This document shows positions 22,220 to 42,001 of a DNA stretch of 42,400 nucleotides, in pieces. The stretch is from assembly GCF_020687245.1 (NCBI RefSeq), contig NZ_JAJEQG010000022.1:1-42400 (forward strand), written 5' to 3'. Under the pieces are notes generated by a model. The model was given only the letters and a program-made list of their open reading frames with translations. It did no database searches and was not told where the DNA came from. The stretch comes from Faecalibacterium longum CLA-AA-H243 (lineage in GTDB: Bacteria; Bacillota; Clostridia; Oscillospirales; Ruminococcaceae). The translations under genes and the position numbers were made by a program. Within the stretch, counting starts at the first letter, position 1. The number at the start of each line of letters is the position of its first letter.

Positions 22220-22497
22220 TCCCGCCTCGCGTAAGAGTTTTCAGCCTTTTTCTCCCGTTTTGCGCAAATCCTTCCACGAACGACCCGAAATTTTCGGGCA
22301 GTTTATCGTATTCCCGCCGTCCCGTCAATCACCCGGAGCGAAGTTTGGCAGTTCTTGTGCAGAGGTTTTCCACAAAAGGCCCTGCGGGCCGTTCAGACTG
22401 CGCAGGGAGGCTGTTTCAGTCGTGCGTTTGTATGAATAATACAGTTTTTTTGTCATTTATTGAAAAAATATATCTAATTCATTGTGCATTCTGCGAA
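22220..22497. other. intergenic region, no gene seen
   Basis: GC-rich then AT-rich sequence between the DUF2798 promoter and the promoter of the mini-ORF transcript. No supportable coding region or RNA seen. Confidence 0.4.
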
Positions 22498-22526
22498 TGG
22501 ACAAACCACGCCCGCGCGTGTATAAT
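22498..22526 (+). promoter_or_regulatory. strong sigma-A promoter of the mini-ORF transcript
   Basis: TGGACA (22498-22503), 17-base spacer, TATAAT (22521-22526). Predicted start near 22533. Confidence 0.85.
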
Positions 22527-22608
22527 AAAGCCAGAAACCAGAGAAGTACAGCAGAAGCTCAAATGAGAGCTAACCCCGCTGACTTTAAGCAGAAAGGAGC
22601 GAAGACCG

Positions 22609-22659
22609 ATGGTCGATATGGAACCCGCACAGTATGCACAGACTGTCGGGGTTCGCTGA
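22609..22659 (+). CDS. mini-ORF 1, 16 residues
   Basis: MVDMEPAQYAQTVGVR. Shine-Dalgarno AAAGGAG, nine bases before ATG. No similarity recognised. Confidence 0.4.
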   Translation: MVDMEPAQYAQTVGVR

Positions 22660-22812
22660 GAAGCAAAATAGAGGCTCACCACAAACGGGATGTTTCCCCC
22701 GTATAAAAACACAACAACAAGAGCCGTTCTTGAGCATCAATAAAGCGAATAACAGAACAGTCTGTGAAATAAAATCCCTCGCGTTCAAATAGATCCGCCG
22801 AAGGTGATCCCA

Positions 22813-22851
22813 ATGAAGAAAGCTTTTGTACGGAACGTCTTATTTGAATAA
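22813..22851 (+). CDS. mini-ORF 2, 12 residues
   Basis: MKKAFVRNVLFE. Preceded by GAAGGTGATCCCA. The region around it pairs (TTCAAATA before with TATTTGAA at its end), so structure and translation may compete. Confidence 0.4.
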   Translation: MKKAFVRNVLFE

Positions 22852-22870
22852 CTCTAAAGGAGAAACTCCG

Positions 22871-22879
22871 ATGTACTAA
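22871..22879 (+). CDS. mini-ORF 3, Met-Tyr-stop
   Basis: ATG TAC TAA, eight bases after AAAGGAG, which forms a GGAG-AAA-CTCC hairpin. Begins 20 bases after mini-ORF 2 ends. Confidence 0.4.
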   Translation: MY

Positions 22880-22925
22880 GTAATGACACTCCCTTCGCAA
22901 ATCTAACTCGAAAGAATGTGGTAAT

Positions 22926-22970
22926 ATGAAATTCATCTCTGTGATTCGTATCCCGCACTCCAACAGTTAA
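22926..22970 (+). CDS. mini-ORF 4, 14 residues
   Basis: MKFISVIRIPHSNS. Weak ribosome site (GAAAGAATGTGGTAAT). Same place in its module as mini-ORF 2. Confidence 0.35.
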   Translation: MKFISVIRIPHSNS

Positions 22971-22986
22971 GAAAAGGGTCATTCCA

Positions 22987-22995
22987 ATGTACTAA
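22987..22995 (+). CDS. mini-ORF 5, Met-Tyr-stop
   Basis: Second ATG TAC TAA, eight bases after AAAAGGG. The context AATGTACTAAG matches that of mini-ORF 3. Confidence 0.4.
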   Translation: MY

Positions 22996-23047
22996 GAAAT
23001 TCATTCCCCTGCCAATCGTTCTTCACCGTTTCAAAGGAGAATCTTCT

Positions 23048-23077
23048 ATGAAACGTCCGGTACAGACCGAAAAATGA
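23048..23077 (+). CDS. mini-ORF 6, 9 residues
   Basis: MKRPVQTEK, eight bases after AAAGGAG. Confidence 0.4.
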   Translation: MKRPVQTEK

Positions 23078-23098
23078 AGAAATCGAGGTCAAGAGGCT

Positions 23099-23116
23099 AT
23101 GACTCCGAAGAAGTAA
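23099..23116 (+). CDS. mini-ORF 7, 5 residues
   Basis: MTPKK, ten bases after GAGG and overlapping a second AGAGG. It stops four bases before the terminator stem. Confidence 0.3.
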   Translation: MTPKK

Positions 23117-23120
23117 GCAT

Positions 23121-23166
23121 CCTGCCGACTGAGGGCTTGCAACCGCCTCGAGTCGGCAGGTTTTTT
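23121..23166 (+). terminator. terminator of the mini-ORF transcript
   Basis: CCTGCCGACT pairs with AGTCGGCAGG, extended by GAGG/CCTC, then TTTTTT. Confidence 0.9.
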
Positions 23167-23187: not shown

Positions 23188-23233
23188 CCTGCATCCTCCC
23201 GTTTTCCTGCCGGGAGGATGCGGGTTTTGTTTT
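23188..23233 (+). terminator. second, tandem terminator
   Basis: CCTGCATCCTCCCG pairs with CGGGAGGATGCGGG (one G-T pair), then TTTTGTTTT. Insulates the alcohol dehydrogenase from upstream transcription. Confidence 0.85.
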
Positions 23234-37994: not shown

Positions 37995-38070
<76 letters not shown>

Positions 38071-38846: not shown

Positions 38847-38880
38847 CACGGGCTGTTTGTGAAAATCGGGACCTTTCCGC

Positions 38881-38960
38881 AAACTACCTACGCCGGCATT
38901 ACCCGGATCAGGTTCAAGGGTCTCTGCTTCCAGCAGATCTCAGCCTCACGGCGCCCCTGT
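38881..38960 (-). promoter_or_regulatory. TPP riboswitch
   Basis: Minus strand has the conserved cores GGGGCGCC, GGCTGAGA, ACCCTTGAACCTGATCCGGG and TAATGCCGGCGTAGGTA in the right order. Confidence 0.97.
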
Positions 38961-39076
38961 TTTCATGTCCGCTTTCAGTATAGCCGCTCTCCGCCAAAAG
39001 TCAAGCCCCCGGCGGTATATCGGCCCGCCGGGTCACATATTCTGGAACAAGCACACTTTGGCGGGAGGGAGCAGTC

Positions 39077-41921: not shown

Positions 41922-41995
41922 GCCTCTTTAGCTCAGTCGGTTAGAGCACCTGACTGTTAATCAGGGTGTCGCCTGTTCGAGTCAGGCAAGAGGCG
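41922..41995 (+). tRNA. tRNA-Asn (anticodon GTT)
   Basis: 74 bases without encoded CCA. Acceptor GCCTCTT/AAGAGGC, anticodon stem CCTGA/TCAGG with loop CTGTTAA, T arm GCCTG TTCGAGT CAGGC, discriminator G. Confidence 0.96.
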
Positions 41996-42001
41996 CTTTT
42001 T

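Follow-up and report, generated by a model that had tools for sequence, protein, structure and literature searches.

Sponge RNAs of the CsrB/RsmZ type carry repeated GGA hairpins in a variable number of modules, features that are also found in the locus described here. Another group for comparison consists of the large RNAs OLE, GOLLD, ROOL and raiA, which are not known to be organised as open reading frames (ORFs) led by Shine-Dalgarno (SD) motifs. At the level of single ORFs, PMC8708949 describes a two-codon mini-ORF of axe-txe that is reported to raise expression in cis, possibly by protecting the mRNA, and cites mini-ORFs of two codons in LEE1 and ycbK and of six codons in LEE4. The same paper describes the leaders of trpL, erm and cat as leader-peptide attenuators. 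An upstream ORF (uORF) of ilvB appears in PMC11109978, whose main text mentions neither Faecalibacterium nor Ruminococc- nor Gemmiger. No description of the RNA reported here was found among the matches listed in open-licence PubMed Central papers.

The window, i.e., the whole stretch of 42,400 nucleotides of Faecalibacterium longum CLA-AA-H243 that was analysed, contains a locus at 22498-23166 that consists of a promoter, seven mini-ORFs and a terminator, without an ordinary gene (Table 1). ORF1 comes first and is followed by three K-Y pairs, in which the products of the Y ORFs are MY, MY and MTPKK. The locus has the SD motif, start, single codon and stop that define a two-codon minigene.

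Layout of the locus

The original prediction, made from the sequence of the window, had proposed a strong promoter, a series of mini-ORFs in a repeating layout and tandem terminators. The promoter was borne out, all seven ORFs lie where they had been placed, and the SD spacing of eight bases claimed for the starts of K1, Y1, Y2 and K3 holds on reading the sequence. The repeat is also as described, with K starts at steps of 113 and 122 nt and the short ORFs starting 58, 61 and 51 nt after the respective MK ORFs. Of the terminators, the first, a stem-loop followed by T6, appears in folds, and a simple pattern scan of this strand returned the second only.

Table 1. Features of the locus in coordinates of the window.
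Feature	Position	Strand	Remarks
Promoter TGGACA-17-TATAAT	22498..22526	+	11/12 consensus matches
5' hairpin	22543..22585	+	inner stem AGCUC/GAGCU, both sides altered in relatives
5' arm of ORF1 start-end helix, between SD and AUG	22598..22609	+	
ORF1, SD AAGGAG, MVDMEPAQYAQTVGVR-stop	22609..22659	+	16 codons; 14-22 in relatives, mostly 16
3' arm of ORF1 helix (last codons of ORF1)	22646..22657	+	
5' arm of K1 stem	22784..22797	+	
K1, MKKAFVRNVLFE-stop	22813..22851	+	end of K1 (22831-22848) is 3' arm of K1 stem
Y1, Met-Tyr-stop, SD AAGGAG	22871..22879	+	
K2, MKFISVIRIPHSNS-stop	22926..22970	+	
Y2, Met-Tyr-stop	22987..22995	+	
K3 (sixth ORF), MKRPVQTEK-stop	23048..23077	+	frame and A-run length co-vary in relatives
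Terminal Y-like ORF, MTPKK-stop	23099..23116	+	stop 4 nt before terminator stem
Intrinsic terminator, stem-loop and T run	23121..23166	+	folds; compensating changes
Second terminator-like hairpin	23192..23229	+	

The -35 box is preceded by GCGAA, as it is in several other genera according to reads of their loci. The longer string GCGAAT(A/G)GAC at the -35 box (22490-22526 in the window) stands at the same place in L041, L060, L088, L090, L149 and L157, and in other genera GCCAAT or GTCAAT occupies this place, perhaps as a promoter element in common. In the 5' hairpin, where alignment columns 48-52 pair with columns 59-63, one pair is CG 11 times, AU twice and UA once, and another is AU 13 times and GC once.

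Six SD-led ATG ORFs with no more than 16 codons lie at the locus, the ATG at 22926 failing the SD rule of the script, compared with a mean of 0.42 in dinucleotide shuffles, none of which reached six (0/5000). Three starts are led by AAGGAG, against a mean of 0.03 in 5000 dinucleotide shuffles, and by the same ORF rule the reverse strand of the locus holds no SD-led ATG ORF of at most 16 codons. When a 635-nt segment was moved along both strands of the 42.4 kb, 2 of 1672 positions, which may overlap the locus itself, reached six. The predicted RNA fold has a z of -7.1 relative to 20 shuffles.

Among its options the original prediction had named a structured RNA of an unlisted class, to be checked against ROOL, GOLLD, OLE, raiA and similar families. 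With the covariance models of Rfam 15 at gathering score, the window gave two tRNAs and a TPP riboswitch elsewhere and nothing at the locus, 12 member loci gave tRNAs only, and at E up to 10 the locus itself gave only two sub-threshold matches (AniS and UCA1). No family matches, which supports the option of an unlisted class. The matches elsewhere in the window are ordinary: the riboswitch lies at 38868-38968 (-), and the tRNA-Ala and tRNA-Asn genes at 37995-38070 (-) and 41922-41996 (+).

The repeated GGA in small hairpins would suit a sponge for a CsrA-type repressor that binds SD motifs. CsrA (PF02599) is absent from the window's genome, in a search that, out of 14 control genomes, detected it in E. 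coli, B. subtilis and T. maritima, and the start and stop codons would be irrelevant to such a sponge. For CsrA in this genome the explanation is rejected, and in general we regard it as hardly credible.

Distribution and genomic neighbourhood

The stretch of the locus was matched in 28 of 31 Faecalibacterium genomes, including all 22 of good quality; the three genomes without a match are assemblies that are 77-83% complete. A search of 84,980 species with an exact 3'-end pattern identified 33 loci, each of which belongs to Faecalibacterium, to Gemmiger/Subdoligranulum or to an Oscillospiraceae MAG; the pattern had no match in 2.9 million viral contigs. Two sequence-only models, R1 for the 3' end and R2 for the ORF1 region, were both run over 396 genomes of the family. 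Matches were obtained in 31 genomes with R1 at E up to 0.01 and in 45 genomes with R2 at E up to 0.001, both lists including chance matches. R2, which reaches further than R1, was searched in the family only and R1 in the family and the order, where 394 genomes gave nothing credible beyond the family.

When 25 of the R2 loci were read, 20 resembled members, L132 and L140 among them by ORF1 alone, and five did not and were rejected (L133, L135, L137, L139 and L141). The match in L137 (G144:C43) resembles the start of rpoB, with a product beginning MVNVKPVQLGKNVRMSF, and we take it to be a chance match; the likeness of this rpoB-like start to MVDMEPAQFGQTVGIR is curious. Ten weak R1 matches, nine from the family and one from the order, were rejected since none of them holds the dipeptide motif in a script check. 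The one from the order, L104 (G702), adjoins an open frame of 187 aa, and L093 was rejected as a member because it reads as coding. In the first family-level pattern search 10 of 297 genomes matched, five of them of the genus and two with true new members (L038 and L040); the pattern matches L031, L032 and L039 were rejected as AraC-type coding sequence.

ORF1 together with dipeptide ORFs was read in eleven genera: Faecalibacterium, Gemmiger, g9, g13, g19, g21, g26, g32, g48, g59 and g110. Genus g53 has the 3' end alone, at a contig edge, and g42 has ORF1 alone. Judged from these sequence comparisons, the locus is a conserved RNA gene whose carriers, the Faecalibacterium-Gemmiger group and its relatives, belong to one GTDB family. 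Homologous regions had been proposed as a check on the mini-ORFs, and start codons, spacing and stops indeed recur in the relatives; none of the outcomes that the original prediction had named as refuting it was observed.

Several loci have forms of their own. In g13 two whole copies of the RNA stand in tandem about 800 nt apart (L088/G042 and L089/G159), and the sixth ORF of one tandem copy (L089, G159) is altered at its start and end. A Gemmiger genome holds a minimal paralogue (L157, about 190-720) that has a promoter of its own, followed in order by ORF1, a single K, MY, MTPII and the terminator; the gene downstream, whose product begins MLQLYWGDGKGKTTAAMG, is presumably a cobalamin adenosyltransferase. 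In one Faecalibacterium group (L017-L024) about 450-500 nt extra lie between modules, and a K-Y pair is repeated (MKVPVWMQIFE or MKIPVWMQIFE, then MI). In g26, the ORF1 of L140/L153 (G288:C52; MYEEPGQ...) occurs without a clear SD-led dipeptide ORF and with metG within about 700 nt, perhaps as a decaying or cis-acting form of the RNA.

The neighbours of the locus in the window are an alcohol dehydrogenase-like gene and the ATP synthase operon; these and the other gene names given here were assigned by reading the beginnings of the proteins and not by searching protein families. In g9, argS is found upstream and metG downstream, metG is also downstream in g21, g26 and g59, and argS, metG or both adjoin the early-branching Faecalibacterium loci. 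An upstream argS is also found in g13 and in several Gemmiger loci, and g110, g32 and g19 have other neighbouring genes. The first downstream ORF of several Gemmiger loci is on the opposite strand.

The presence of metG downstream in several lineages might indicate a leader or attenuator of such a neighbour, with ribosomes on the last ORF blocking the terminator. The position of the last stop, which by eye is 4-9 nt before the terminator stem in eight genera (Faecalibacterium, Gemmiger, g9, g13, g21, g26, g59 and g110), agrees with this. In g19, on the other hand, the last dipeptide ORF ends about 40-50 nt before the terminator stem and does not abut it, and in the window a second terminator follows. 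The downstream gene also varies, being alcohol dehydrogenase-like, an opposite-strand ORF in Gemmiger, or another gene in g110, g32 and g19. A leader-peptide attenuator should be followed, on the same strand, by the conserved gene that it regulates, and no such gene was found across the loci compared; there is no constant cistron downstream of the Y ORFs, and a terminator follows. Because the context varies, we rejected a leader or attenuator of metG or another single gene, and this explanation appears very unlikely.

Coupled ORFs, start-end helices and drifting peptides

ORF1 was present in all 59 scored transcripts, as was at least one ORF of 2-4 codons in the context GG-N4-9-CC-N-ATG. Left out of this set were L128, which has no anchor, and L051 and L064, where the locus is without its 5' part; L132/L151 and L140/L153, which have ORF1 and no clear dipeptide ORF, were not added. 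The 59 transcripts hold 130 ORFs of 2-4 codons, 121 of them unique, although the transcripts of the extra genera were cut 1330 nt past the anchor and a few short ORFs may fall past the terminator or in the g13 tandem copy. Exactly two codons are found in 107 of the 121 and Met-Tyr-stop in 75, and a Met-Tyr ORF is present in all eleven genera. The second codon is TAC in 83 of the 121 unique ORFs and ATT, ATC, AAC, TTC, TGC or TGG in 32 of the 38 others. Where it encodes tyrosine, it is TAC in 83 of 83 unique short ORFs and never TAT; GTAC is self-complementary.

An ORF of 6-20 codons ends 9-32 nt upstream of 125 of the 179 Y-type starts, the terminal MTP-type included, compared with 468 of 2360 positions drawn at random from these transcripts. 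The remaining 54 starts lack a coupled K ORF, and none was found in g19, g21 and g48; the coupled K ORFs come from eight of the eleven genera, those of g9 being doubtful. The spacing from K end to Y start is 16-23 nt in 99 of 116 unique cases, a distance at which a terminating ribosome can pass to the next start (translational coupling). K-Y pairs number two in g13, three in F. prausnitzii and in the window, and four in L027, or five when TTG is allowed as a start. The predicted RNA of Faecalibacterium, Gemmiger, g13 and g110 is a leader ORF of about 16 codons, pairs of a K ORF of 7-17 codons and a dipeptide-type Y ORF, and a terminator. In the other genera ORF1 and the Y ORFs are retained, and the K ORFs are less clear. 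The terminal ORF of relatives encodes MTPII, MTPIM, MTPIK, MTPIG, MKPII or MY. Since the last ORF is plain Met-Tyr in g9, g21, g26 and g59, the MTPKK of Faecalibacterium is probably an altered Y module and not another kind of element.

Three candidate structures around the Y ORFs and loops were given up. A hairpin just downstream of every Y start, suggested on visual inspection of Gemmiger and of the terminal ORF, did not hold up as a general rule. For internal Y ORFs the mean z of such hairpins was +0.28 in Faecalibacterium and -0.21 in Gemmiger, a lean was found only in g9 and g59 (about -2, n = 3 and 6) with one g21 case at -1.7, and the pairing profile past the Y starts showed a modest rise at +17/+18 and no more. 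A long-range pairing of the 5' AGUACA with UGUACU of Y1 is not claimed, as two of its pairs are disrupted, with no compensation, in 2 of 14 rows, and a loop pairing UUCGGA/UCCGAA was dropped because by eye it fails in several members.

In ORF1 and the longer ORFs, the final codons pair with the region from the SD to the AUG at the beginning of that ORF. The own arms of ORF1 gave a mean of -16.9 kcal/mol, and arms exchanged between genomes gave -12.2 kcal/mol (20 representatives, 0/10000 permutations); for K the values were -12.4 and -9.0 kcal/mol (28 K ORFs, 0/5000), and for K3 -10.9 and -8.8 kcal/mol (27 sixth ORFs, 0/10000), these permutation counts not being strict probabilities because the representatives are hand-picked and related. 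For ORF1, 22 representatives were named and 20 used of 37 unique sequences, L016 and L020 being left out as their arms duplicate another row; those for K and K3, also chosen by hand, were from 116 unique sequences. When one arm was shifted or both were displaced, the effect was gone in all eight controls, which cover ORF1 and K only (z -1.2 to +1.2). Weak ORF1 helices were obtained for g13 (-7.0 and -9.2) and for a single member of g32 (-8.4). Within Faecalibacterium, 16 of 116 pairs have two-sided changes and most pairs are invariant, so that the support comes from the between-genus comparison. This comparison shows that the start regions of ORF1 and the K ORFs are closed by a predicted helix with their own last codons. 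Structure kept by compensating changes also speaks for the structured-RNA option of the original prediction.

Such structure could belong to a non-coding RNA whose mini-ORFs load ribosomes as clamps, against RNases or for folding, and whose function resides in conserved parts outside the ORFs. The strong folding and the conserved stretches outside the ORFs within Faecalibacterium are in line with this explanation, and the axe-txe mini-ORF, as described in PMC8708949, offers a precedent. Between genera, likeness outside the ORF regions is low by eye and it is the ORF architecture that recurs, and in some genera several hundred nt separate the modules. We see clamp-like mini-ORFs as possible, with a chance that is limited though not small.

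A conserved CCGAAAA, read in either of two phases, marks the end of the sixth ORF. Phase 1 is combined with five A in 23 unique stretches, ending ...SEK or ...TEK-stop, and phase 2 with four A in 12, ending ...RK-stop, and this compensation keeps the stop in all 35 scorable unique stretches. The rule takes the ATG 14-21 nt before CCG and covers 52 sequences, L051 included, of which 36 are unique and 35 scorable; the 36th stretch, L021, was misread by the script and on direct reading is SEK with five A. If the most-upstream ATG is taken instead, the rule fits 40 of the 52, and in the other 12 a further-upstream ATG in another frame was judged not to be a start. The members with phase 2 are the F. 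prausnitzii core group, L025, L026 with L051, and g13. The frame thus probably switched more than once, in several lineages as defined by clade and genus.

The peptides drift between members and the sixth ORF changes frame, with the core of ORF1 kept in most genera. This core is EEPxQ or xEPxQ in most genera and not in Gemmiger. At the nucleotide level, (GAA)GAACCC-NNN-CAG in most genera outside Gemmiger, the third positions are mostly kept and the inner codon changes amino acid (by reading), a pattern that points to RNA-level selection. As far as comparison can show, starts, stops and spacing are under selection while the peptides drift.

A multi-peptide message, in which micropeptides including formyl-dipeptides would be the product, had been another option of the original prediction and is now disfavoured. 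It could draw on the ORF1 core and on Met-Tyr in all eleven genera, and since the core is kept in most genera, a peptide role for ORF1 itself is conceivable. The peptides nevertheless vary, the frame of the sixth ORF switches with its stop kept, and the inner codon of the ORF1 core varies in amino acid where third positions are kept, as RNA-level selection predicts. As many as 107 of the 121 unique short ORFs encode a dipeptide only, and there is little information in dipeptides. Taken as a whole, peptides as the product are improbable.

Alternatively, the RNA might act as a sponge that sequesters initiator tRNA, initiation factors or 30S subunits engaged in initiation. Many SD-led starts with immediate stops would make such a sponge cheap, the number of modules would set its dose, and the variable K-Y copy number and the tandem duplication of the whole RNA in g13 are consistent with it. 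A sponge, however, needs neither self-closed ORF starts nor the K-to-Y spacing nor a frame compensation that keeps the stop, and it would require very high RNA abundance. On balance a sponge is unlikely, yet deserves consideration.

Proposed mechanism and comparison with known systems

The remaining two options of the original prediction, a ribosome-loading RNA and an unlisted structured RNA, fit together and are supported by the comparison of eleven genera, whose members differ in their peptides and yet have SD-led starts and early stops again and again. Our preferred reading, held tentatively and at slightly less than even confidence, is that the locus encodes a stand-alone translation-gated RNA, i.e., a chain of hairpins that ribosomes open and that senses initiation capacity. 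Each ORF1 or K ORF would be a translation-gated hairpin. A ribosome that reaches the stop would melt the 3' arm and re-expose the start, making translation self-sustaining, and when initiation slows the hairpin would shut. A ribosome terminating on K would land beside the Y start and be handed over to Y, which ends after two codons, so that the ribosome would pause briefly at a defined position and leave without having made a peptide. The number of hairpins standing open would follow initiation capacity (free subunits and fMet-tRNA), and the state of the chain may set RNA stability or the binding of a partner.

The RNA thus probably reports or buffers initiation capacity, where we infer both ribosome loading and output. 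Its role is placed in the control of translation capacity partly because the gene adjoins argS or metG in several lineages. A more far-reaching claim, which we consider possible and clearly short of likely, is that this is a new class of RNA in which ribosomes run over self-resetting hairpins, with K ORFs that are opened by their own translation and coupled by termination and re-initiation. The initiation rate would then alter the shape and fate of the RNA, gradually or in steps, giving a sensor that is powered by ribosomes and makes no useful peptide.

If this is true, translation itself is the function of a conserved RNA gene in an abundant gut genus and in its relatives, and RNA switches controlled by ribosomes extend from gene leaders to a free-standing device. 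It would also account for the existence of conserved two-codon ORFs. A construct of about 640 nt with specific predictions is an object that can be tested directly. The locus would further suggest that such genes can be missed both by annotation that ignores ORFs under 10-20 codons and by structure-based RNA libraries.

Compared with the CsrB/RsmZ sponges, the present RNA differs in that its own genome is without CsrA and in that start and stop codons appear to be selected. With OLE, GOLLD, ROOL and raiA it shares its length and a biochemical role that is unknown, and it differs from them by the absence of a covariance match. As in axe-txe mg2, LEE1, LEE4 and ycbK, the ORFs are very short and what matters would be translation or ribosome occupancy, not a known peptide (PMC8708949). 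Whereas those minigenes are described there upstream of a gene regulated in cis, here the RNA stands alone, has several Y ORFs and no fixed downstream gene, and many of its two-codon ORFs lie directly behind a self-paired ORF. The attenuators and uORFs described in PMC8708949 (trpL, erm and cat) and PMC11109978 (ilvB) resemble it in that ribosomes on short ORFs remodel RNA structure, a capacity that is proposed here. Unlike in those systems, there is no constant regulated gene, no conserved regulatory codons were seen, and many ORFs stand in series. There are precedents for two-codon minigenes, for attenuators and for large RNAs whose role is unknown, and a free-standing, conserved RNA of coupled, self-closed mini-ORFs, not seen among the matches listed in open-licence papers or in Rfam, is to that extent new.
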